Of a stretch of 64,000 bases of DNA, positions 22,045-41,725 are shown in pieces. The DNA is from Singulisphaera sp. GP187 (GTDB lineage Bacteria; Planctomycetota; Phycisphaerae; Phycisphaerales; SM1A02): positions 1 through 64,000 of the forward strand of contig CAMBOV010000012.1 of assembly GCA_945869475.1 (NCBI GenBank). The letters run 5' to 3'. Under the pieces are notes generated by a model. That model was not told where the DNA came from and did no database searches. It saw nothing but the letters and a program-made list of their open reading frames with translations. Each line of letters starts with the position of its first letter. The first letter of the stretch is position 1. The position numbers were made by a program, and so were the translations under genes.

Positions 22045-23919
22045 ATGTCACTGCCGCAGCTGCTGAGCGATCCCATTATTGGAATTGATTTAGGTACGAC
22101 GAATTCGCTCGTGGCATTCAGTGATGCAGCTGGACCGCGCGTGTTGTGCAACGAGGCCGGCGAGCGGATGATTGCCTCCGCGGTGCGCTACAGCAACGGT
22201 GCCGCTGTCGCGGTGGGATGCGATGCGCGTCGAAGCGCGGCGGAGTATCCAGCAGAGACGGTGTTGAGCTCCAAGCGGCTGATGGGACGCTCCTACGACG
22301 AGGCGCGTGCACGCACTGGTGGAGAGGTCTCACAACTCTGTGCGGGCGCGCGCGGTCTCGCCGCAATCCGCGCCGGTGGAGCAACACTTTTGCCGCAAGA
22401 GGTCGCAGCGGTCATCCTTCGTGAACTGCGACGAATCGCAGAAGTGCAGCTTGGAGTTTCGGTGCGCCGCGCAGTCATCACAGTGCCGGCATACTTCGAT
22501 GATGGACAGCGCCAGGCGACGCGTGACGCGGCCCGTCTCGCTGGTCTCGATGCAGTGCGAATCGTGAATGAGCCGACGGCTGCTGCGCTCGCGTATGGAA
22601 TCGGCGCGCGTGGTCGCAGCGAGACGATCGCTGTGTACGACTTCGGCGGAGGCACGTTTGACATCTCGATCTTGCAGGTGATCCCAGATGGTGGCAGCGG
22701 CGATGGCGATCTCTTTCGCGTTCTCTCGACCGCGGGAGACACGCACTTGGGCGGCGACGACATCGACGAGCTGCTCGCACGACACATCGCACGAGACGGC
22801 GCACGAGAGCTCGAGAGTGTGGCGGACGAGCCGACGCGCGCACTCCGCGATCGTGCCGAGTCGACGAAAATAACCCTCTCGCTGCGCGAATCTGTGGATA
22901 TTGAGTTCGAGACGAGTGATGGCACGCGCAACGCATGCAGCGTGACTCGCGCGACGTTCGATGGACTCATTCGTCCGTTGGTGCAGAGGACCATCGACGC
23001 GTGTGCGCGCGCAATGCGCGACGGTGGGTCGCCCGCGATCGACCGGGTCGTCATGGTTGGAGGGTCCACTCGCATTCCGCTCGTTCGTCAGCTCGTTTCT
23101 GAGTTTTTCGCGCTCGAGCCCTATACGGCGGTCGATCCTGATCTCGTTGTTGCACTCGGCGCGGCGGTGCAGGCGTCCGTGTTGCGTGGCGATCGACGAG
23201 ACGTGCTGCTGCTCGATGTAATCCCGCTCTCGCTGGGTATCGAGACCGTCGGCGGAGCGGTCGCGAAATTGCTGATGCGAAACGCGATGATCCCAGCGCG
23301 CGCGACCGAACTCTTCTCGACAAGCGTCGACAACCAAACGTCGGTGCGATTGCAGGTTGTGCAGGGCGAGCGTGAGATGGCCTGCGATTGCCGTTCACTT
23401 GCGACGTTTGAGCTGCGCGGACTGCCTGCGATGCCTGCGGGAATTCCACAAGTCGAAGTCGCATTCCTTGTCGACGCCAATGGTGTGTTGCAAGTGAGCG
23501 CGGTCGAGCGACGCAGTGGATGTCGAGCGAGCGTGCAGGTGGTGCCGAGTTACGGTCTGACGGTTGAAGAGATCGAGCGCATCGAGGCTGAGAGTCTCGT
23601 GCATGCACGCAGCGACATGCACCACCACCGTGTCGTCGATCTTGCAGTGAATTGCGCGCTCGATATCAAGTGGATCGAGGAAGCCTTGGCGAAGACCCGC
23701 AGTGAACTCAGCGAGCCGTACGTCACGAAGGTCGAAGCGTTGCTCGCACAGTTGCGCGAGTTCGTCGGCGCGGCGCGCGCGACACCGCACGAGGTCGATG
23801 CGGATGCGTTCTTCGCTGCGAAGGATCTGCTCGATCGAGCGAGCATGCACCTTCACGAAACGTCGATCGCACGAAGTTTGCGCGAGATGTCCATCCCAAC
23901 GAAAGAGAGCATCCCATGA
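22045..23919 (+). CDS. Hsp70 family chaperone (HscA/DnaK-like)
   Basis: A 624-residue Hsp70. The ATPase domain shows phosphate 1 [13 protein letters not shown] (residues 13-25), [44 protein letters not shown] and [12 protein letters not shown]. The substrate domain follows ([31 protein letters not shown]). Length (E. coli HscA is 616) and motifs [10 protein letters not shown] and [12 protein letters not shown] are closer to HscA, the iron-sulfur assembly chaperone, than to DnaK, but no iscS, iscU or hscB is nearby, so the client is open. The C-terminal lid is short and lacks the acidic EEVD-like tail. It follows the sigma factor by 12 bp and overlaps ispD by 4 bp. Confidence 0.9.
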
Positions 23920-30970: not shown

Positions 30971-32143
30971 ATGAGGGTGATGTCGATTCGTGCAATCGCA
31001 GCGCGGGTGTGTCATACGACAGTGGCGATTGCTGCCATCACAGGTGCGGCCTGCGACGATCGAACCGCAGAGTCGCGCAGCACGGGCGACCCCAAACCAT
31101 TTGAATCGGAGCGCGAGGTTGTGATCTACGTCAGCACGGATGAGGCGCTCGCCCGTCCAATTCTGGACGCATTTCAGCGAAGTTCTGGCATCACAGTGCG
31201 CGCGCGTTACGACGGAGAAAACGCAAAGGCGACTGGGTTCGCTGCGATGATCCGCGTCGAGCGCGATGCTCCGCGGGCCGATCTGTTCTGGTCGGGTGAG
31301 TGTTTCGTTGCCGCGCAACTCGCGACAGAACTCTTGGTTGACCCATGGCGCAGTGGCCGCGTCGATCAGTTTCCAGCGAGCCTTCGAGGGGCATCGGGTC
31401 GTTGGTATGGGCTCACGCCACGGGTGCGTGTCTTGGTGTACGACCCATCGAAAATTGCCGCCGCCGATTTACCGACGTCGATGATTGATCTTTCGAGTCC
31501 CACGTGGAAGGGTCGCGTGGCGATCGCGGATCCACGATTCGGCACAACCCGCGGACAGATTGGCGCGCTCGCCGCGCAACTCGAAGCGCGTGAAGTTGGT
31601 GGTTGGAAGAAATGGGTGAGCGCGATCGCGGCGAATCATCCACTTATTCTCGCTGGAGGAAACGGCGCCGTGGTCGATGCGGTCGCGCGCGGCGAGGCAG
31701 CGCTCGGACTCACCGACACCGATGATGTGTATGGCGCGGTCGCAGGTGGAGCCTCTCTCGCGATGGTTGCGCTGCGCCACCTTCCGCCGGGCGAAAGTGG
31801 TGGGGGAGCGATGGTGATTCCCGCGAGCGTCGCGCTCGTCGCTGAGGCTCCGCATCCGCGCGAGGCAAGTGAACTCATGTCGTTTCTGCTTGATCAGGAT
31901 GTGACCCAGTGGATGCATCAGTCACGGCAGGGAACGCTGATTGTGCCAGAGATTGCAGCGCTCGCAGTTGCCGGTTCGCCGGCCCCGGCGCCCGAAGGAT
32001 TTCCGCTGATGCCCGCGCGAATCGATCCGATGCGAATCAACACGGTGGATGATCCAGCTCAGTTCGACGCCGATGAGCTTGCAGCTGCCATCGACAAGGC
32101 CATTGCAGAGTTCATGAACACGTGTCGCGCGGAGCCTCGGTGA
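30971..32143 (+). CDS. ABC transporter substrate-binding protein, Fe(III)/FbpA-like
   Basis: A 390-residue periplasmic binding protein. The N-terminal signal (VCHTTVAIAAITGAAC) ends in a lipobox-like GAAC, so it is probably a lipoprotein. The fold follows the Fe(III)-binding FbpA/FutA pattern: VVIYVSTDEALARPILDAFQ, DLFWSGECF, LTPRVRVLVYDPSKI, WKGRVAIADPRFGTTRGQIG, GGNGAVVDAVARGEAALGLTDTDD. The conserved tyrosine ligands of FbpA cannot be placed with certainty. The permease gene overlaps it by 4 bp (GTGA). No ATP-binding subunit is nearby. Confidence 0.8.
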   Translation: MRVMSIRAIAARVCHTTVAIAAITGAACDDRTAESRSTGDPKPFESEREVVIYVSTDEALARPILDAFQRSSGITVRARYDGENAKATGFAAMIRVERDAPRADLFWSGECFVAAQLATELLVDPWRSGRVDQFPASLRGASGRWYGLTPRVRVLVYDPSKIAAADLPTSMIDLSSPTWKGRVAIADPRFGTTRGQIGALAAQLEAREVGGWKKWVSAIAANHPLILAGGNGAVVDAVARGEAALGLTDTDDVYGAVAGGASLAMVALRHLPPGESGGGAMVIPASVALVAEAPHPREASELMSFLLDQDVTQWMHQSRQGTLIVPEIAALAVAGSPAPAPEGFPLMPARIDPMRINTVDDPAQFDADELAAAIDKAIAEFMNTCRAEPR

Positions 32144-34722
32144 GCGCTGCCCAGTTGATCGCGCTGCCTGGACTGTTGTGCATCGTTGTGCTCGTGGTGT
32201 TTCCGATGGCCGTGACACTGGCGCGCGTGTTGAGCGAGAGTGCGACGACGCAGCCTGCCGAACTCTTCGACGGCTTCTCCCTGCTCGTGCGTTCGGTTCT
32301 CTGGTCGGTTGGCATCGCCATCGTCGCGACCCTCGTGGGATGGTTTCCCGGACGAGCGCTGCGCCGCGGTGGATTTGTACTTTCAACGATCGTGCTGGTC
32401 GCATCACTGATTCCGGCCTACGCGCTCTTCTTCTGTTGGTGGAGATTTCTGCGGCCCGGCAATGCGATCGCCGACTTCGCGATCGCCCACGATCTCACAC
32501 CTCTTTTTCGCGCCGGAGTGCTGGCACTCGCGCTCGTCGCATGGAGTTGGCCCATCGCTGCATGGATCTGCGCACTTCGTCGATCGTCAAGCGACGAGAT
32601 GACGAGCACGCTGCTTCAACTCGATGGAGCTGCTCGCGCGCAGCGATTCGTGGCCTGCTGGCAGAGCGACAAAGCGGCGCTCGCCGTCGCAGTCGGCGTG
32701 ATTACGCTTGTTCTTTTCGGTGAGACGAGTGCGTTCGACGCGGCGCAGGTTGCGACGACCGCATCGGAGATTCGCGCGCTCGACGCTTCGGGTGCGACAC
32801 TGCGCTCAGTCGTCGTCGCGGCACTCCCAGCGACGGCACTGGCGATTCTCGCGAGTGCAGTGGTTGGGTGGTTTCTCGTTCGATCGCTGCGTGATTCGCG
32901 TGAGCCAAGCGCGTCCGACGACGTTGGCATTTCTTTCGGACGCGTCAGGCGTTCACCGAGCGCGCGGTGGGGGAGAGCCATTGCATGTGCGCTCTTTGCA
33001 CTCGTGACCGTGCTTCCAATCGTGCTGCTCGCACTCGAGGCGCAGCACTCCGCGAGCGCCGGGTCGCTGAGAGCACTTCACCTGCGTGGCGCACTCAACA
33101 CACTCATGATGGCAGCACTCTCGGGTGCGATGTGCTCGCTCGTCGCACTCGCGGGAGCGGCGCTGATGATGTGCGGAGGCCGCCGAACGATTCCACTCGC
33201 GCTCTCCGTGGCACTCATCGCGCTCACTGCTCCCGCAACGGTGGTCGCACTCGCCACCGCGGAGTTCTGGCGCGCACTGCCGATAGGGCTGACCATCTAC
33301 GACTCACTCGTCATCGTGAGCATCGCGCAGAGTGCGCGCTACTGCGCAGTCGCCTTCGCGATCGGACTCTGGACTGGCACATCGCTCTCGAAGCCACAGC
33401 GCGAACTCTGGGTGATCCATGGTCGCACCCTGCGAGATTTCATTCGAATGGGATGGCCCATCCTGCTGCGCGCATGCATTGGGGGATGGCTCGTCACGCT
33501 GCTCTTGGCCGCGAGCGAAACGGCAATCGCCGCGCGACTTGAACCGCCTGGAATGGAATGGATCGCAACACTGCTGTTGAGTGCGATCCATTACCAAGAC
33601 GTAAGTGGCGCGAGTGGGGCGATCCCATGGATGGCGGCACTCGCATGCGTGGGAGCACTCGCTGCGGCGCTGCTCTTTCGCTCGATGAAATCACTCGCGG
33701 CAGTCGCCACATCTCGCGGCGCGTTGCTCCTGCTCTTCGTCGTCGCAGTCGCAGTTGCGCAGGGTGGGTGTGAGCAGAATGCGCACGAGCATGCTGCCTT
33801 CGATGAGTCGAAGCAGTCGACGGCGCCACTTCCGACCGATCAGGTCATCGGACGCGCAGGTCGCACCGAAGGACGGTTCGATATTCCGCGCGCCTTCGCG
33901 ATCGAACCAGCGACGGGGGCGATCTTCGTCGCTGACAAGAGTGGTCGTGTGCAACGATTCGCGAGCGATGGAACGTTTGAACGGGTGTGGAAGATGCCGA
34001 AGTTCGATAATGGCAAGCCCACTGGGATGACGTTTGGTCCAGACGGATTGCTCTACGTCGCCGACACGCACGAGCATCGAGTGCTCGTCTTCGATCGCGA
34101 TGGGACGATCATCAAGACGTTCGGCTCGTACGGGCAAGCCGATGGACAGTTCGTCTATCCAACAGACCTTGCGTTCGCCCCTGACGGTCGCATCTTCGTG
34201 AGCGAGTATGGCGGCAACGACCGCATCCAGGTCTTCGACCGCAGTGGAGTCTTTCTCTACGCCTTCGGAGAACCGGGCGACGGCGTTGGAGAATTTTCGC
34301 GCCCACAATCAATCGCATTCTCGCACGACGGCAGCGAACTCTTCGTCGCCGACTCGTGCAACCACCGCATCGCCGTCTTCACTCCCGAAGGACAGTGCAC
34401 CCGAGTGCTTTGCAGTGCTGGAGCAGCGGCCGGCGAAGTTGCCTATCCCTATGGAGTCTGCTCGCTCGCCGATGGTTCGCTGCTCATCGCCGAGTTTGGA
34501 AACTGTCGAGTGCAGTGCATCGATGGCGCCACTGGCAGTTCACTCGCACTCTTTGGTGGTGGCGGTCGGTCGGTTGGCCGCCTCAACGCTCCGTGGTCAG
34601 TCGCGGTGCATGCGGGGCGTGCCTTTGTGCTCGACTGCGCCAACGGCCGAGTGCAATCGATGCCGCTCGCGGCGCTCAGTGGGCAAGGTGAGCGGGGCAA
34701 GGTGACCTCGACCGACCGGTGA
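32140..34722 (+). CDS. Double-length ABC permease (FbpB-like) fused to an NHL beta-propeller
   Basis: An 860-residue open frame. Residues about 1-515 form a full double permease of the Fe(III)/FbpB type: two sets of about six membrane helices, each with a degenerate EAA loop (LLQLDGAARAQRFVACWQS; HGRTLRDFIRMGWPILLRAC). Residues 516-544 read MKSLAAVATSRGALLLLFV then AVAVAQGGC, a lipoprotein signal peptide with lipobox Cys544. From about 560 to 850 there are NHL repeats (FDIPRAFAIEPATGAIFVAD; TFGPDGLLYVADTHEHRVLV; LAFAPDGRIFVSEYGGNDRI). No stop codon separates the halves. The GTG start at 32140 overlaps the binding-protein stop by 4 bp; a GTG at 32122 is less likely. ATG 33685 could be an internal start. 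Confidence 0.8.
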   Translation: MSAAQLIALPGLLCIVVLVVFPMAVTLARVLSESATTQPAELFDGFSLLVRSVLWSVGIAIVATLVGWFPGRALRRGGFVLSTIVLVASLIPAYALFFCWWRFLRPGNAIADFAIAHDLTPLFRAGVLALALVAWSWPIAAWICALRRSSSDEMTSTLLQLDGAARAQRFVACWQSDKAALAVAVGVITLVLFGETSAFDAAQVATTASEIRALDASGATLRSVVVAALPATALAILASAVVGWFLVRSLRDSREPSASDDVGISFGRVRRSPSARWGRAIACALFALVTVLPIVLLALEAQHSASAGSLRALHLRGALNTLMMAALSGAMCSLVALAGAALMMCGGRRTIPLALSVALIALTAPATVVALATAEFWRALPIGLTIYDSLVIVSIAQSARYCAVAFAIGLWTGTSLSKPQRELWVIHGRTLRDFIRMGWPILLRACIGGWLVTLLLAASETAIAARLEPPGMEWIATLLLSAIHYQDVSGASGAIPWMAALACVGALAAALLFRSMKSLAAVATSRGALLLLFVVAVAVAQGGCEQNAHEHAAFDESKQSTAPLPTDQVIGRAGRTEGRFDIPRAFAIEPATGAIFVADKSGRVQRFASDGTFERVWKMPKFDNGKPTGMTFGPDGLLYVADTHEHRVLVFDRDGTIIKTFGSYGQADGQFVYPTDLAFAPDGRIFVSEYGGNDRIQVFDRSGVFLYAFGEPGDGVGEFSRPQSIAFSHDGSELFVADSCNHRIAVFTPEGQCTRVLCSAGAAAGEVAYPYGVCSLADGSLLIAEFGNCRVQCIDGATGSSLALFGGGGRSVGRLNAPWSVAVHAGRAFVLDCANGRVQSMPLAALSGQGERGKVTSTDR

Positions 34723-34741: not shown

Positions 34742-37732
34742 ATGATCCCCATCGGTTTCGAACGTCCGGTTGCATTGCTCTTGCTCGTGGTGCTTCCTGC
34801 ACTCTGGCTGCTCAGTTGGCAGCGCCGCCATGCCACAGGCATCGCGCGCGCGTGGGCGAGTTCGATCGTTCGATCCGTTCTTGTGCTGCTGTTGTCGTTG
34901 AGTCTTGCGCAACCTTCGATCGTGCGCACGGGTGAAGGTGTCACGCTGCTGGTTGTTGCCGATGTGAGTCGGTCGATCCCAAGTGATCTGCTTGCGCGTG
35001 CCCAGACGGCGTTGCAACTGGCGACGAGGAATCCGCCCAATCGTGCGGACCGCGTCGGAGTCGTCACGGTCGCGCGTGATGCGAGCGTTGCAGAGATTCC
35101 ATCGGTTGGCGGTGAGATTTCGTTTGGTGCACACGGTGGTGAACTTGATGGATCGAATCTCGCCCACGGAGTGCGACGCGCACTCGCGCTGCTGCCCTCG
35201 GACACGATGAGCCGCTTGCTGCTTGTCTCTGATGGCAACGAGACCGCCGGAAGTCTGCGCGAAGCCGCTGCGCTCGCGAAGGCAAATCACATTCCTATTG
35301 ACGTGCTCGCGCTGGAGTACAACCAAAAAGGCGTCACAATCTTCGAGGGAATTCGCGCTCCGACGCGGGCGCGACTCGGACAGACGGCCGACTTAAAACT
35401 CTTTCTTCGAAGCCAGGGTGGCGCGAGTGGCACCCTCTACGTGAAAGAGAATGGTAAACCCATCGACCTCGATAGCACCGCAGCGGGGGATGGACTCGCC
35501 GTGACGTTGAAGGCAGGTCCAAACACATTCGAAGTTCCGATGAGCCTCGATTCGAGCGGCGCGCAGCGATACGAAGCGGTTTTCGAACCTGATGCCGCAA
35601 GTCTCGATGGGGTCGTCGAAAACAAGAAGGGAGCGGCAACGGTCTTCGTCTCTGGCGAGGGACGCGTGCTCGTGGTCGATCAAGATGGCAGCGAGGGCGG
35701 GGCGCTCGTCGACGCCCTTCGAAGCGGCGAGCTGCTTGTTGATGTGGTGAATCCAGAGCGACTCAGCGAGGGGATGTCTTTTCTCGCGAGCTACGACGCG
35801 GTTGTGCTCGTGAACATCGCGCGTCACGAGGTCGACAATGCAACCGACCGAATGTTGCACGCCTACGTGCACGAACTCGGCGGCGGACTGCTCATGATCG
35901 GCGGCGACAAGGCATTCGGCGCAGGTGGATGGATCGACAGCGAGACCGCCAAGGCGTTGCCTGTGCAGATGAATCCGCCAGCGACACGCGAACTTCCACG
36001 CGGCGCGCTCGCGCTGGTGATGCACTCGTGCGAGATGCCGCAAGCGAACTACTGGAGTGAACAGGTCGCGGTCAGCGCGATCGATGCGCTTTCACGTCTT
36101 GATTACGCTGGAATTGTCGTCTTCAACTATGGAATGAAGGATGGCGTCAACGGCGCGGGGTGGTACTTCCCGATGCAAATCGTTGGAGACAAGGGTGCGG
36201 CGTTGAAAGCCGCACGCTCGATGCCGGTTGGCGACATGCCCGACTTCGGCGCATCGATGACAGCTGCGCTTGCTGGACTCGAAAGTGTTCCAGCCGGTCA
36301 ACGGCACGTGATCGCAATCTCCGATGGCGATCCCGCTCCGCCGACGCAGGAACTTCTCGCGAAGTTTAAGGCTGCGAAGATCACGGTGACGACGGTCATG
36401 ATCGCTGGGCATGGCACCGCCGAAGACTTGCAGAACATGAAGGCGATGGCCGAGTGGACGGGCGGCAACTTTTACAACGTGATGAATCCAAAGCTGCTGC
36501 CCAAGATCTTCATCAAAGAGGCGACGCTCGTTTCGCGCAATCTCTTGGTCGAGGGAGATTTTCAACCCTCGGTCGCGCCTGAGATTGGCGGTCCACTCGA
36601 GGGCATTACGCAGGTGCCGGGCGTCAAGGGGTATGTCTTGACGGTGCCGCGCGAGGGTCTTGCGCAGATTCCTATTCTCAATCGCACGTCCGAGGGGAAC
36701 GATCCCATCTTTGCATCGTGGAACTTCGGACTTGGAAAGTCTGCGGCATTTACGAGTGATCTCAGCGGACGGTGGGGCGGCGCGTGGCCCGCGTGGAGCG
36801 GATTTCAAGGAATGTGGGAGCGCGTCGTGCGCTGGCTGATGCGACCCGCGGCGCCGTCGAACGTGCTCTTGAAGACCCGACTCGATGGTGAAGAGGCGAC
36901 CGTCGAACTCGAGGCGATCGGCGGCGAATCAGGACTCATGAACTTCATGCGCACCGACGCGCGCGTTGTGGGTCCAGATGGTGAGACAACGCCACTTGCA
37001 CTTGAGCAGGTCGCGCCCGGTCGCTATCGCGGCACCTTTCAGACTTCGCAGACTGGCTCGTATCTCGTTGATGTCGGATTACTCGATAACAAGGGCGCAC
37101 GCGCGGGTGGGTCGATTCAAGGGGCGGTCACGCTCGCCTATCCACGCGAGTTTCGTACGAGTCGCGACAATGCGGCGTTGCTGCGCGCGATTGCTCAAGA
37201 AACTGGAGGGCGCACCCTCACGGTTGGCGACCTCGCTGTTGCGAATCTCTTCGACCGAACGGGTCTCGCGCCGCCGTCGAGCGTGCAGCGCATCTGGGAC
37301 ATCCTCGCAATCATCGCGGCAGCGCTGCTCGTGATCGACGTCGCTGTTCGTCGACTCGTCGTCGACCGTGAAACAGCACGCGACGCCGCCCAGCAAGCCT
37401 TCGGAGGAGCCCGCGGCACAGGTGGTGAGGTGATCGCCGCATGGAAAAAAGCGCGGCGCGTCTCAACTGCGAAAGCGGCCGACGAGCCGAGCCGAGCGAG
37501 TGCTTCGGGTGAGCGCGACGTGCTGCCTCGTGCGAGTGCGCGGGTGACACCGCTCTCGCCTGCGCCGCCTGCGACCGACGCAGCGGCGGGTGCAACGACA
37601 GGAGAGAGCGCCGAGCAGCCTCAGGAGTCACCAATGGATCGCCTTCGCCGCGCGAAGAAGCGCGCGAAAGATGGCCGTGACGATGCGGATGGCTCGCCTG
37701 ACTCAACTGGTTCAGCCGGAGCGGCCTCATGA
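34742..37732 (+). CDS. Large VWA/glutamine-amidotransferase-like membrane protein
   Basis: A 996-residue protein. Two N-terminal membrane helices (ALLLLVVLPALWLLSW; SSIVRSVLVLLLSLSLA) precede a VWA-type domain with a degenerate MIDAS (LLVVADVSRSIPS) and a second acidic motif (LLLVSDGNETAGSLREAA). The middle part resembles the class I glutamine-amidotransferase-like fold of this family (SYDAVVLVNIARHE, GGGLLMIGGDKAFGAGGWID), followed by another VWA-like piece (RHVIAISDGDPAPPTQELL). A last membrane helix (IWDILAIIAAALLVIDVAV) leads to a charged tail of about 110 residues. Such proteins sit in MoxR/Bat operons; the function is unknown. It starts 19 bp after the permease-NHL gene and overlaps moxR by 4 bp. 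Confidence 0.8.
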   Translation: MIPIGFERPVALLLLVVLPALWLLSWQRRHATGIARAWASSIVRSVLVLLLSLSLAQPSIVRTGEGVTLLVVADVSRSIPSDLLARAQTALQLATRNPPNRADRVGVVTVARDASVAEIPSVGGEISFGAHGGELDGSNLAHGVRRALALLPSDTMSRLLLVSDGNETAGSLREAAALAKANHIPIDVLALEYNQKGVTIFEGIRAPTRARLGQTADLKLFLRSQGGASGTLYVKENGKPIDLDSTAAGDGLAVTLKAGPNTFEVPMSLDSSGAQRYEAVFEPDAASLDGVVENKKGAATVFVSGEGRVLVVDQDGSEGGALVDALRSGELLVDVVNPERLSEGMSFLASYDAVVLVNIARHEVDNATDRMLHAYVHELGGGLLMIGGDKAFGAGGWIDSETAKALPVQMNPPATRELPRGALALVMHSCEMPQANYWSEQVAVSAIDALSRLDYAGIVVFNYGMKDGVNGAGWYFPMQIVGDKGAALKAARSMPVGDMPDFGASMTAALAGLESVPAGQRHVIAISDGDPAPPTQELLAKFKAAKITVTTVMIAGHGTAEDLQNMKAMAEWTGGNFYNVMNPKLLPKIFIKEATLVSRNLLVEGDFQPSVAPEIGGPLEGITQVPGVKGYVLTVPREGLAQIPILNRTSEGNDPIFASWNFGLGKSAAFTSDLSGRWGGAWPAWSGFQGMWERVVRWLMRPAAPSNVLLKTRLDGEEATVELEAIGGESGLMNFMRTDARVVGPDGETTPLALEQVAPGRYRGTFQTSQTGSYLVDVGLLDNKGARAGGSIQGAVTLAYPREFRTSRDNAALLRAIAQETGGRTLTVGDLAVANLFDRTGLAPPSSVQRIWDILAIIAAALLVIDVAVRRLVVDRETARDAAQQAFGGARGTGGEVIAAWKKARRVSTAKAADEPSRASASGERDVLPRASARVTPLSPAPPATDAAAGATTGESAEQPQESPMDRLRRAKKRAKDGRDDADGSPDSTGSAGAAS

Positions 37733-38775
37733 GCAAAGTTGCGCACGAAGAATCTCGCGCGCTCGACTCAGTCGAAGCAGTCCGCGAGGCGTGCGCTGAG
37801 TTTCGTCTCGTCGCCGATCGACTTCGAACTGAAATCGCGCAGGTGCTCGTGGGTCAAACGACGGTGGTTGAGCAGGTGCTCATGGCGCTCTTCGCCAATG
37901 GGCACGTCTTGCTTGAGGGAGTCCCTGGGCTCGGCAAGACGCTTCTCGTTCGCACACTCGGTCGTGCACTTGGACTGCAGTTCTCGCGCATTCAGTTCAC
38001 TCCAGACTTGATGCCTGCTGACATTCTCGGCACGCAAATTGTCGTTGAGAACCAAGCCATGGGACGGCGCGAACTGCAGTTTCGCCCAGGTCCAATCTTC
38101 ACGCAGATTCTGCTCGCGGACGAAATCAACCGGGCCTCTCCAAAGAGTCAGTCGGCGCTTCTCGAAGCGATGCAAGAGCGCGCTGTCACCGTTGCAGGCG
38201 AGACGCGAAAACTCGATCGGCCTTTTCTTGTGCTTGCGACACAGAATCCAATCGAGCAGGAGGGAACCTATCCGCTGCCCGAGGCGCAACTCGATCGCTT
38301 TCTCTTCAAGGTGACGGTGCCCTATGCGACGCGCACGGACATCGCCACGATCATCGATCGCACCACGGGCGCGCGCGCGCGTGAGGAGGAGACGAAGGCC
38401 GTGTTAACCGCACGCGAGATTCACTTCGCGCAAGATCTTGCACGCAAGGTGCTCGTCGCTCGGCACGTTCAGGATTACGCGGTGCGACTCGTGCTCGCGA
38501 CCCATCCCACTGGAACTGCTTCGCTCGCTGAGGTCGAGAGGATGGTTCTCGTGGGCGCGAGTCCGCGCGGAGGTCAGGCACTCATTGCGGCCGCGAAGGT
38601 GCGCGCGCTCATGGCGGGTCGGTGTGCAGTCAGCACGCAAGACATCGCAGCGCTGGTTGCCCCCGCACTGCGCCACCGAATTGTGCGCACCTTTGAAGCA
38701 GAATCTGCTGGCGTGACCTGCGATGGCATTCTTGCGCAGATCGTGCAACTCGTTCCCGCCGAGGCGCAGCCGTGA
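37729..38775 (+). CDS. MoxR-family AAA+ ATPase
   Basis: A 348-residue AAA+ protein. Walker A is GVPGLGKT (about residues 65-72), Walker B ILLADEINRASPKSQSALLEAM, sensor 1 VLATQNPIEQEGTYPLPEAQLDRF, and the C-terminal lid carries GASPRGGQALI with sensor 2 arginine. MoxR ATPases act as chaperones that mature metalloenzymes or remodel VWA partners. It overlaps the preceding VWA gene and the following DUF58 gene by 4 bp each, the standard arrangement for a MoxR-DUF58-VWA module. Confidence 0.95.
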   Translation: MSKVAHEESRALDSVEAVREACAEFRLVADRLRTEIAQVLVGQTTVVEQVLMALFANGHVLLEGVPGLGKTLLVRTLGRALGLQFSRIQFTPDLMPADILGTQIVVENQAMGRRELQFRPGPIFTQILLADEINRASPKSQSALLEAMQERAVTVAGETRKLDRPFLVLATQNPIEQEGTYPLPEAQLDRFLFKVTVPYATRTDIATIIDRTTGARAREEETKAVLTAREIHFAQDLARKVLVARHVQDYAVRLVLATHPTGTASLAEVERMVLVGASPRGGQALIAAAKVRALMAGRCAVSTQDIAALVAPALRHRIVRTFEAESAGVTCDGILAQIVQLVPAEAQP

Positions 38776-39713
38776 GTGGGTTGGCTGCGAGTGCAGCCGC
38801 GACCTCCAAGGGGAGATTCGACAAGATCGATGACCTCATCGATTCGAGGTTGATGGCGCGACTCGATCGACTCGATGTCGTGAGCCGAAAGATTTTCACT
38901 GGCAAGATTCAGGGAGAGCGTCGCAGCCGTCGACGCGGCCAATCGGTTGAGTTCGCAGACTTTCGCAACTACTCGCCGGGCGATGACCTGCGCTTCGTCG
39001 ATTGGAACATCTACGCGCGACTCGATCGACTCTTCTTGAAACTCTTTCTCGAGGAGGAAGATCTTTCGATGGTGATCGCACTGGACATGAGTCAGTCGAT
39101 GGATGGGGGCGATCCAAACAAGTTCGATTATTGCCGCCGACTCGCGATGGCACTTGGATACATCGGGCTCGTCAACAACAATCGCGTGAGCCTCTTCGGT
39201 TTCGGCGGCGGCAGGATTGAACGACTCACAGGACTGCGCGGTCGTCGCCGCACGCGCGAGATGGGTCGCTGGTTGCTCGATCGCAAGACCGACGGCGATG
39301 CTGGTTTCGCAGATGGAATGCGCGCGATCGCGCTCGGCGGACAGGGGCGCGGCGTGCTGCTTGTGCTGAGCGACTTTCTCTTTCCCGATGGATACGAGAA
39401 GGGACTCACCTACGTCGCCGGTCGCGGATTCGATGTCTACGCGCTGCAGTTGCTCGCGCCGCAGGAGATCGACCCCGCCCGCCACGGAGTCACCGGCGAT
39501 CTTCGCCTCATCGACAGTGAAACGGCAGAGGAGGTCGAAGTCACCGCATCGACCTCAGTCGTTGCGAAGTACAAGGAGTCGCTCGAGAGATACGTCGGCT
39601 CGCTTCGCGAGTTTTCGGTGCGCCGCAACATCTCGCATCAAGTCGTTGAGACCTCGCTCGACCTCGACACGCTGCTGCTCGACTACCTGCGCAAGCGAGG
39701 ATTGCTGGCATGA
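38772..39713 (+). CDS. DUF58 domain protein
   Basis: A 313-residue cytoplasmic protein. The DUF58 signature EFADFRNYSPGDDLRFVDWN then IYARLDRLFLKLFLEEED is at residues about 58-97, followed by a VWA-like core with VIALDMSQSMDGGDP (MIDAS DxSxS present). The usual partner is the MoxR ATPase encoded just before it. The start is a GTG that overlaps the moxR stop by 4 bp (GTGA); the end overlaps the BatA-like gene by 4 bp. Confidence 0.92.
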   Translation: MSGLAASAAATSKGRFDKIDDLIDSRLMARLDRLDVVSRKIFTGKIQGERRSRRRGQSVEFADFRNYSPGDDLRFVDWNIYARLDRLFLKLFLEEEDLSMVIALDMSQSMDGGDPNKFDYCRRLAMALGYIGLVNNNRVSLFGFGGGRIERLTGLRGRRRTREMGRWLLDRKTDGDAGFADGMRAIALGGQGRGVLLVLSDFLFPDGYEKGLTYVAGRGFDVYALQLLAPQEIDPARHGVTGDLRLIDSETAEEVEVTASTSVVAKYKESLERYVGSLREFSVRRNISHQVVETSLDLDTLLLDYLRKRGLLA

Positions 39714-41725
39714 GCGCGGCTGGGCTACTCGCCGTCACGTGGCTCGCTCCGCTCGCGGCATCCGTGCTCGCGCTCGCGACACTTCCACCGCTCGTCGCCC
39801 TCTATTTTCTGCGACTTCGGCGCACCAAACGGGTCATCTCGAGCACACTCTTCTGGACGCGTGCGACCCAAGACTTGCGTGCAAACGCTCCCTTTCAACG
39901 GCTCCGGTTCTCGCTGCTTCTACTCTTGCAACTGCTCGCGCTGTTGTTGCTGATTTTTGCGATTGCCCAGCCGCAACTCGACCTTGGCGGCACGAACGCG
40001 CAGCGGGTTGTCATCCTGATTGATGCATCGGGATCGATGAGCGCGACCGATTGTTCGCAGAGCACGACGCGACTCACCGAGGCGAAGCGGCTTGCGAGTG
40101 AACGAGTGCGATCGCTTTCGAGCGGCGGACTCTTCTCGAGTGCCGCGCCTTCGATCATGGTGGTCGCCTTCGCCAAAGATGCTCAAGTCGTCTGTCCATT
40201 CACCGACAACGCAGCGCAAGCGATCGATGCGATCGCCTCGATCGAAGCGACCGATGAAACCACGCAGATCGCAGACGCGTTCGAACTCGCGCGCGCCTTC
40301 ACGACGGTAACCGATCCAGACAATGCGCAGGCGGTGATCGCAGCGCCTCCCGAGTACGAACTTTTCTCGGATGGTCGCATCGCCGATCTCGACAAGGTGG
40401 TGCTGCGCACCGGTGAACGGGTCGTCTTTCACACCGTCGGCGCTGCCACGACACAGAACGTCGGCATCGCTGGACTCGCCGCGGCGCGCACCCCAGAGCG
40501 GCCCGACGAGGTGCAGATCTTCGCCCGCGTCGTGAACTGGGCATCGACTCCGTATGCGGGCGATCTCGAAGTGCGCGTCGATGGCACCCTGCGCGCGGTG
40601 ACTCCAAAGCCCGTCGAAGTGCCAGCACTTCACGAAGATTCCACAACGAAGGTTCGCATCGCGGGCGAGACGCAAGTTGTCTTTCCGTCGATCGCGCTGC
40701 CGCAAGGTGGAGTCGTCGACGTTCGACTCACGACCAAAGACGCGCTCGTGGCCGATGACTGTGCCTCGGTGGTTGCCGCTCCGCCGCACGCGTTGAGTAT
40801 CGCGATCGTCGGCAAGGGCGCCTTCGTTCTGAGGTCGCTTCTTGAGGGGATGACCCTCGCGGCACTCGACGTCTTCTCGCTCGAAGAGTGGGATCGCCGC
40901 CTCGCGAGTGATGCGCAAACTCCAGACGCCTATGACGTCATTGTGCTCGACGACGCGATGCCTGCACAACTCGCGCGCGGGCGGTATCTCGTCTTTCGCG
41001 CGCCGCCACTCGCTGCAGGCATCGTGGCATACGGCGAGAAGCAGAACGCGTCGGTGCGCAGTCTGCGCGATGAACATCCACTCTTGCAGTATGTGAATCT
41101 CGATGGACTCTTCGTCGCGTCGATGACCGCGGTCGCTCCCGGTGGCGATGCTGATGTCATCGTTGAAGCGAGTGAGGGTCCGCTTGTTGTGACTGTGAAT
41201 CGCGGCCCACTCACACTCGTCTACGTCTCGTTCGATCCGATGGAGAGCAATTGGCCACTTCAGCGAGGATTCGTCAACTTCTGCTCGAACGCAATCGCGT
41301 GGCTCGCGGCGGGTGGTCAGGCGGTGACCGACGAGCCTCTCGCGCCGGGCGACATCATCACGGCGCGACTTCCGAGCGATGCTCGCACGCCCGTGTTGCG
41401 CCTGCCCGATGAGCGCGAGATCGCGCTGGTCGTGCCCGCGCAGTCGAACCTCTCGTATGGTCCTTTGCGTCGCAGTGGTGTCTATCGATTGCAGTGGGAG
41501 CAGGGTTCAGCGGACCGCGCGGCGACAACACTTTCGTACGCGGTCAACATGAAGACTCGCACGGAGGGACGGTGCGACGCAGCGAGCGAGATTTCATTCG
41601 CGACCGAACGAGTCACGGGTGTGCAAGGTGGCGGAAGCGCGGCGAGCGCGGCGTGGCCCTGGCTTCTGCTCGCAGCGTTTGTGCTGCTGATCCTCGAATG
41701 GTGGGTCTGGCTACGACGCGTGTGA
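39710..41725 (+). CDS. BatA-like VWA membrane protein
   Basis: A 671-residue protein with the Bat N-terminal motif (WLAPLAASVLALATLPPLVAL then YFLRLRRTKRVISSTLFW), a second membrane helix (LLLLLQLLALLLLIFAIAQP) and a VWA domain with intact MIDAS (VVILIDASGSMSATD). The middle has beta-sandwich-like segments and a glutamine-amidotransferase-like fold (VIVLDDAMPAQLARGRYLVF). The C terminus is one membrane helix (AAWPWLLLAAFVLLILEWWVW). It is the last gene of the operon and its final 15 bp overlap tail-to-tail with the TPR-YggX gene. Confidence 0.85.
   Translation: MSAAGLLAVTWLAPLAASVLALATLPPLVALYFLRLRRTKRVISSTLFWTRATQDLRANAPFQRLRFSLLLLLQLLALLLLIFAIAQPQLDLGGTNAQRVVILIDASGSMSATDCSQSTTRLTEAKRLASERVRSLSSGGLFSSAAPSIMVVAFAKDAQVVCPFTDNAAQAIDAIASIEATDETTQIADAFELARAFTTVTDPDNAQAVIAAPPEYELFSDGRIADLDKVVLRTGERVVFHTVGAATTQNVGIAGLAAARTPERPDEVQIFARVVNWASTPYAGDLEVRVDGTLRAVTPKPVEVPALHEDSTTKVRIAGETQVVFPSIALPQGGVVDVRLTTKDALVADDCASVVAAPPHALSIAIVGKGAFVLRSLLEGMTLAALDVFSLEEWDRRLASDAQTPDAYDVIVLDDAMPAQLARGRYLVFRAPPLAAGIVAYGEKQNASVRSLRDEHPLLQYVNLDGLFVASMTAVAPGGDADVIVEASEGPLVVTVNRGPLTLVYVSFDPMESNWPLQRGFVNFCSNAIAWLAAGGQAVTDEPLAPGDIITARLPSDARTPVLRLPDEREIALVVPAQSNLSYGPLRRSGVYRLQWEQGSADRAATTLSYAVNMKTRTEGRCDAASEISFATERVTGVQGGGSAASAAWPWLLLAAFVLLILEWWVWLRRV

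Follow-up and report, generated by a model that had tools for sequence, protein, structure and literature searches.

In a 64,000-nucleotide stretch of DNA from Singulisphaera sp. GP187 (positions 1 to 64,000 of contig CAMBOV010000012.1, assembly GCA_945869475.1; class Phycisphaerae of the Planctomycetota; hereafter the window), we found that the frame at 32140–34722 encodes, as one chain, an FbpB-type ATP-binding cassette (ABC) permease and an NHL β-propeller lipoprotein that is a separate gene elsewhere, and that this fusion is real and old. From the sequence data, we consider the chances about evenly poised for a reading in which the chain would be lipidated and cut at Cys550, leaving a permease without its ATPase motor and a lipid-anchored propeller, which would act with an FbpA-fold solute-binding protein (SBP) in a MoxR-VWA-DUF58-BatA cassette, more likely as a receptor or scaffold than as an importer. 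Residues of the fused chain are numbered from GTG 32122 unless stated otherwise.

A permease and a lipoprotein in one chain

The frame was open, with no internal stop, from GTG 32122 or GTG 32140 to TGA 34722. The second GTG, chosen in an earlier note on this DNA, is a plausible start and is favoured over the first because it shares the letters GTGA with the stop codon of the preceding SBP gene. AlphaFold modelled the whole fused chain with a mean predicted local distance difference test (pLDDT) score of 85.6 and a predicted template modelling (pTM) score of 0.74, the join being of low confidence. Foldseek matched the permease half to FbpBC of Thermus thermophilus (9j4r_A; TM-score 0.74 by target length), which was also the sole match of the permease profile against the PDB at E values up to 0.01 (E 1.8e-12), bearing out the FbpB-like double permease proposed in the earlier note. 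The propeller half was matched to NHL domains, with 6xg7 at the top, and its NHL repeats were recognized by Pfam at E 1.2e-29. The Pfam scan of the fused protein matched no permease model; genome-wide, the permease model BPD_transp_1 matched 11 stretches, the fused frame not being among them.

Relatives were compared in 93 rows, one per genome, which were chosen from homologue matches and are not a census; one search alone gave a permease match in 121 of 298 genomes of the class. The two parts were fused in 58 rows, separate with the NHL gene next in 18, and separated by an ABC ATPase gene in 4; a further 8 rows had no NHL match and 5 were not callable, the available stretch ending early or, in L203, the frame being broken. 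The same frame, likewise fused, recurs in 58 of the 93 rows, which excludes an assembly artefact; the probability that a stop codon was simply missed in this assembly is practically nil, and the in-frame fusion thus stands as first described. Moreover, the fused rows span 13 families of the class (f1, f2, f3, f4, f8, f11, f13, f15, f16, f17, f20, f23 and f25), so that the fusion is not recent, as the earlier note had supposed. A near relative was the metagenome-assembled genome (MAG) Baikal-deep-G179 of the Phycisphaerales (L034), and among 18 genomes of the same genus the fused gene was whole in 11 and partial in 3 (G004, G009 and G017).

The two genes are not always separate in relatives; both states occur. 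In a quick maximum-likelihood tree built from 78 rows (of the 80 with an NHL part, L042 and L043 being omitted as truncated), the fused label changed six times, all six changes being forced by starred branches; support was by the Shimodaira–Hasegawa-like approximate likelihood ratio test (SH-aLRT) only. Because of these six changes, the fused and separate states look interchangeable on the sequences compared. The truncated L043, whose permease gene ends in an ATGA overlap with the start of a separate lipoprotein gene, would add one more change, with the caveat that an indel in the MAG could explain its two-gene state. One genome also carried a second, divergent permease-NHL copy (G182:C29:22805-25144) with one TGA within the permease match.

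The embedded lipoprotein signal

The lipobox cysteine described in the earlier note as Cys544 (counted from GTG 32140) is Cys550 in our numbering. Its column was invariant in a 23-row alignment, and a [GAS]-Cys pair preceded the propeller in all 58 fused rows. The lipobox Cys was likewise present at the N-termini of the separate NHL proteins (22 of 22 rows, comprising the 18 separate and the 4 ATPase-between rows), and a stricter hydrophobicity filter was passed by 56 of 58 fused, 16 of 18 separate and 4 of 4 ATPase-between rows. The lipoprotein signal is internal in the fused rows and N-terminal in a gene of its own only where NHL is separate. The charge before the hydrophobic segment was positive in 56 of the 58 fused rows (average +2.7), and that after the Cys was negative in 46 (average –2.3), a pattern expected of a segment that crosses the membrane outward. 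Genes for both Lgt and Lsp (signal peptidase II) were present in the genome. On these grounds, cleavage of the chain at Cys550 appears fairly probable.

Presumably, loss of the ATPase came first and brought the permease and NHL genes together. The embedded signal would then carry the propeller outward, and lipidation by Lgt and cleavage by Lsp at Cys550 would yield equal amounts of the motorless permease and the lipid-anchored propeller. Together with the FbpA-fold SBP, these might constitute a receptor or scaffold that senses a ligand and is linked to MoxR-VWA-DUF58-BatA. This last step is put forward with less assurance than the others, and the receptor or scaffold role with MoxR and VWA serves us as a tentative working guess.

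Alternatively, the chain might stay uncut as a covalent fusion of the OpuABC type, with the old signal segment as a membrane-spanning anchor that keeps the propeller on the permease; a helix at 533–547 in the AlphaFold model of the join, of low confidence, would agree with such an anchor. An anchor alone, however, needs no Cys, yet every one of the 58 fused rows kept the Cys, the sole invariant position from –20 to +15. The mere transmembrane linker envisaged in the earlier note is less likely for this reason. In addition, the six or more changes between the one-gene and two-gene states suggest that attachment is not essential. We therefore regard the uncut fusion as rather unlikely, while keeping it among the candidates.

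The earlier note had also suggested that ATG 33685 might start a separate lipoprotein from the same mRNA, so that two proteins would be made from one frame. A complete-looking signal peptide follows this ATG, and the separate lipoprotein of L043 begins at its ATGA overlap. Against an internal start, however, the nearest relative (L005) had no Met at the matching place, no start column was conserved, a Met lay 12–40 residues before the Cys in just 30 of the 56 fused rows scored, and no obvious ribosome-binding site was seen in the sequence upstream of ATG 33685. Such a second product is very improbable. The ATGA at 33685–33688 in the join has the letters of the overlapping stop and start of some two-gene relatives; it is absent in L005 and is for this reason probably due to chance.

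The ATPase gene and the coupling loops

As noted earlier for the window, the cluster contains no ATPase gene. In an ABC profile scan of 35 loci of the class, 10 of which gave no match to SBP, VWA or both, the only match was in L112, where it belongs to a neighbouring importer set, that is, a complete SBP-permease-ABC ATPase set (L112:937-4610) directly upstream of the ATPase-less cassette. In other Planctomycetota, three loci (L251, L254 and L238) had the order UP-SBP-PERM-ABC-NHL-VWA-MoxR, all as separate genes, UP being the first gene of the cassette and PERM the permease. L204 had UP-SBP-PERM-ABC-NHL with no VWA match, and L239 had ABC-NHL-VWA, its permease being cut by the contig start. 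A locus in another family of the phylum (L203, genome G600) had UP-SBP-permease-NHL-VWA with no ATPase match, the permease match being split over two frames.

The EAA motif is described as a direct ATPase contact in MalFGK2 (PMC3150292), and both EAA loops of the window permease have lost the motif. EAA loop 2 was intact in only 1 of 37 ATPase-less permeases, in contrast to 13 of 15 with a neighbouring ATPase gene; for loop 1, the counts were 3 of 37 and 10 of 15, respectively. The simple p-values of 2e-9 (loop 2) and 4e-5 (loop 1) overstate the contrast, the rows being related. All four complete ATPase-between cases (L251, L254, L238 and L204) kept loop 2. From the distribution of the ATPase gene over the phylum and the decayed EAA loops, we infer that the ATPase gene was lost from the cassette in the window's class; it is also rather likely that the cassette permease has lost ATP-driven import.

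In three genomes of family f51 (L269, L270 and L271), it is the ABC ATPase that continues in frame into the NHL lipoprotein, the two being linked by a hydrophobic stretch that contains a lipobox Cys. This fusion is not family-wide, the NHL frames of G431, G615 and G646 having only 320–350 aa. A broader proposal, which we advance as possible but somewhat doubtful, is that of a natural bacterial polyprotein. A transporter part and a lipoprotein would be made as a single chain and then separated at an internal lipobox by signal peptidase II. The arrangement would have had at least two origins, one joining the lipoprotein to the permease (in the class) and one joining it to the ABC ATPase (in the other family). 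In the class, an ABC importer without its motor would now serve a MoxR-VWA cassette as its membrane receptor.

The SBP encoded upstream of the fused gene, a binding-protein neighbour already recognized in the earlier note, was modelled by AlphaFold with a pLDDT of 89.8, was matched by Foldseek to HitA/FbpA, and gave a best E of 2.2e-46 in a profile search against the PDB. In FbpA, a pair of adjacent Tyr residues provides iron ligands. The position of this pair aligns with an invariant Asp pair, D251-D252, in the SBP. A ferric ligand, as might be supposed from the FbpA fold, was rejected because of this replacement, and the SBP ligand is probably not a bare ferric ion.

Several observations weigh against the cut chain and a receptor or scaffold role. 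The SBP keeps 21 invariant positions, as expected were its ligand still delivered, and these suggest that ligand binding has been kept. EAA decay also extends beyond the cassette, since among nine further permeases of the class with neither NHL nor an ATPase beside them, loop 2 was kept only in L098. Both sets of permeases in the EAA comparison (37 and 15) were hand-chosen, which adds to the overstatement by the p-values. Four of the 18 same-genus genomes (G003, G005, G008 and G010) gave weak matches only or none. In a literature search, no publication came up that describes Lsp cleavage at a site within a polytopic protein. Finally, an ATPase encoded elsewhere could drive the cassette permease in trans: the genome has 46 ABC_tran matches, and the top FbpC-like ATPase (L189:3333-4412, contig C2; 331 bits over its length) has no importer genes beside it. 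This ATPase also occurs together with the cassette gene in G004, G021 and G038, which gave no match to another permease of the window's genome (L187:7505-9322, contig C1).

That permease, unlike the one in the cassette, has both EAA loops intact, and relatives of the L189 ATPase were found in G052 and G040 near an SBP match of low score (30 bits and 57 bits, respectively) and a relative of the L187 permease. The L187 permease and the L189 ATPase, which are on separate contigs in the window's genome, thus lie near each other in these two genomes. Both were also present in genomes without the cassette gene (e.g., G003, G005, G008 and G037), and the second-best FbpC-like ATPase (274 bits) had permease matches of its own on the same contig. 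With these findings, and with loop 2 decayed in nearly all ATPase-less permeases, an importer still driven by an ATPase from elsewhere is unlikely. A cut chain yielding a motorless permease remains the reading we prefer.

The cassette and its comparison with known systems

The fused gene lies among the genes listed in Table 1, and UP occupies the same place in many relatives. Eight loci of family f2 retained PERM-NHL-VWA-MoxR and gave no SBP match; in four f2 loci (L089, L090, L091 and L105), neither an SBP nor a UP gene was found ahead of the permease. In L090 and L091, the upstream frames on the opposite strand resemble a biotin carboxylase and its carrier protein. The loci of family f4 (L036–L040 and L052) had the fused gene without other cassette genes in the available stretch. 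In L104 (G278), the VWA frame directly follows the permease frame, leaving no space for an NHL gene between them. In L241, L242, L247 and L248, NHL directly follows UP without an intervening SBP, permease or ATPase gene, and because of these loci VWA and MoxR look like the steadiest partners of the propeller; distant permeases can, however, go unrecognized by the profile, which gave 29 bits in L269, 38 bits in L270 and no match in L271. An HSP70 gene (22045–23916) lies upstream of the cassette in the window.

Table 1 Coordinates of the fused gene, its parts and the surrounding cassette genes in the window
Feature	Position	Strand	Remarks
UP, first cassette gene, 606 aa	29145..30965	+	No Pfam family over cut-off; same place in many relatives
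SBP, FbpA-fold solute-binding protein	30971..32143	+	Pfam SBP_bac_11/6/1
Fused permease and NHL propeller frame	32140..34722	+	Alternative upstream start GTG 32122; GTGA overlap with SBP stop
FbpB-like double permease half, residues 1 to about 515	32140..33666	+	AlphaFold, Foldseek, profile search
First EAA (coupling) loop, motif lost	32605..32649	+	
Second EAA (coupling) loop, motif lost	33397..33429	+	
Embedded lipoprotein signal segment up to lipobox (residues 522–550 including Cys)	33685..33768	+	ATG 33685 at segment start not conserved
Lipobox Cys550 (Cys544 from start 32140)	33769..33771	+	Invariant alignment column
NHL β-propeller, residues about 570–850	33829..34671	+	Pfam, AlphaFold, Foldseek
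VWA / GATase1-like protein	34742..37732	+	Pfam
MoxR AAA+ ATPase	37729..38775	+	AAA_3 E 1.2e-63
DUF58 protein	38772..39710	+	
BatA / VWA protein	39710..41722	+	

Should the internal lipobox be cut, one chain would yield both a polytopic membrane protein and a lipoprotein, parted by the ordinary lipoprotein enzymes, and signal-peptide prediction must then look inside chains as well. EAA-loop decay in the absence of the ATPase gene provides a natural test of an importer changing its role, and the cassette offers a lead to what the MoxR-VWA-DUF58-BatA clusters of Planctomycetota act on. The open-licence literature yielded no recognized account of the permease-NHL fusion or of the cassette, which is weak evidence of absence.

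Like the FbpABC-type ferric importers (type I ABC), the window has an FbpA-fold SBP and an FbpB-like double permease in one cluster; unlike them, it has no ATPase gene in the cluster, has lost the EAA motifs, carries the permease fused to a lipoprotein, and shows an invariant Asp pair in its SBP in place of the iron-binding Tyr pair of FbpA. A parallel in architecture is found in transporters with a fused extracytoplasmic domain: in OpuA, a hydrophobic anchoring sequence joins this domain to the transmembrane part (PMC11065425), and in GlnPQ, too, the two are covalently joined. The join in the window is similarly a hydrophobic segment, as predicted; however, it connects an NHL propeller rather than a substrate-binding domain, the lipobox Cys is kept in all 58 fused rows, and no ATPase gene lies beside the gene.

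The MoxR-vWA-β-propeller ternary systems (PMC7159879), whose reported hosts include planctomycetes and whose vWA component carries the fused propeller, resemble the window in that MoxR and VWA genes neighbour a propeller. The window MoxR scored 46.3 bits against the bpMoxR model (cut-off 27), while AAA_3 scored 213. In contrast to these systems, the propeller of the window is on the permease, and DUF58 and BatA follow; membership in the published systems was rejected, since no propeller family was among the matches of the VWA protein. As for a receptor role, GlnX is described with four transmembrane helices and not as a permease, unlike the membrane protein of the window, and GlnH-GlnX is thus a precedent in function only: there, a lipoprotein binding protein is proposed to signal via a membrane protein to a cytoplasmic kinase (PMC9769921).

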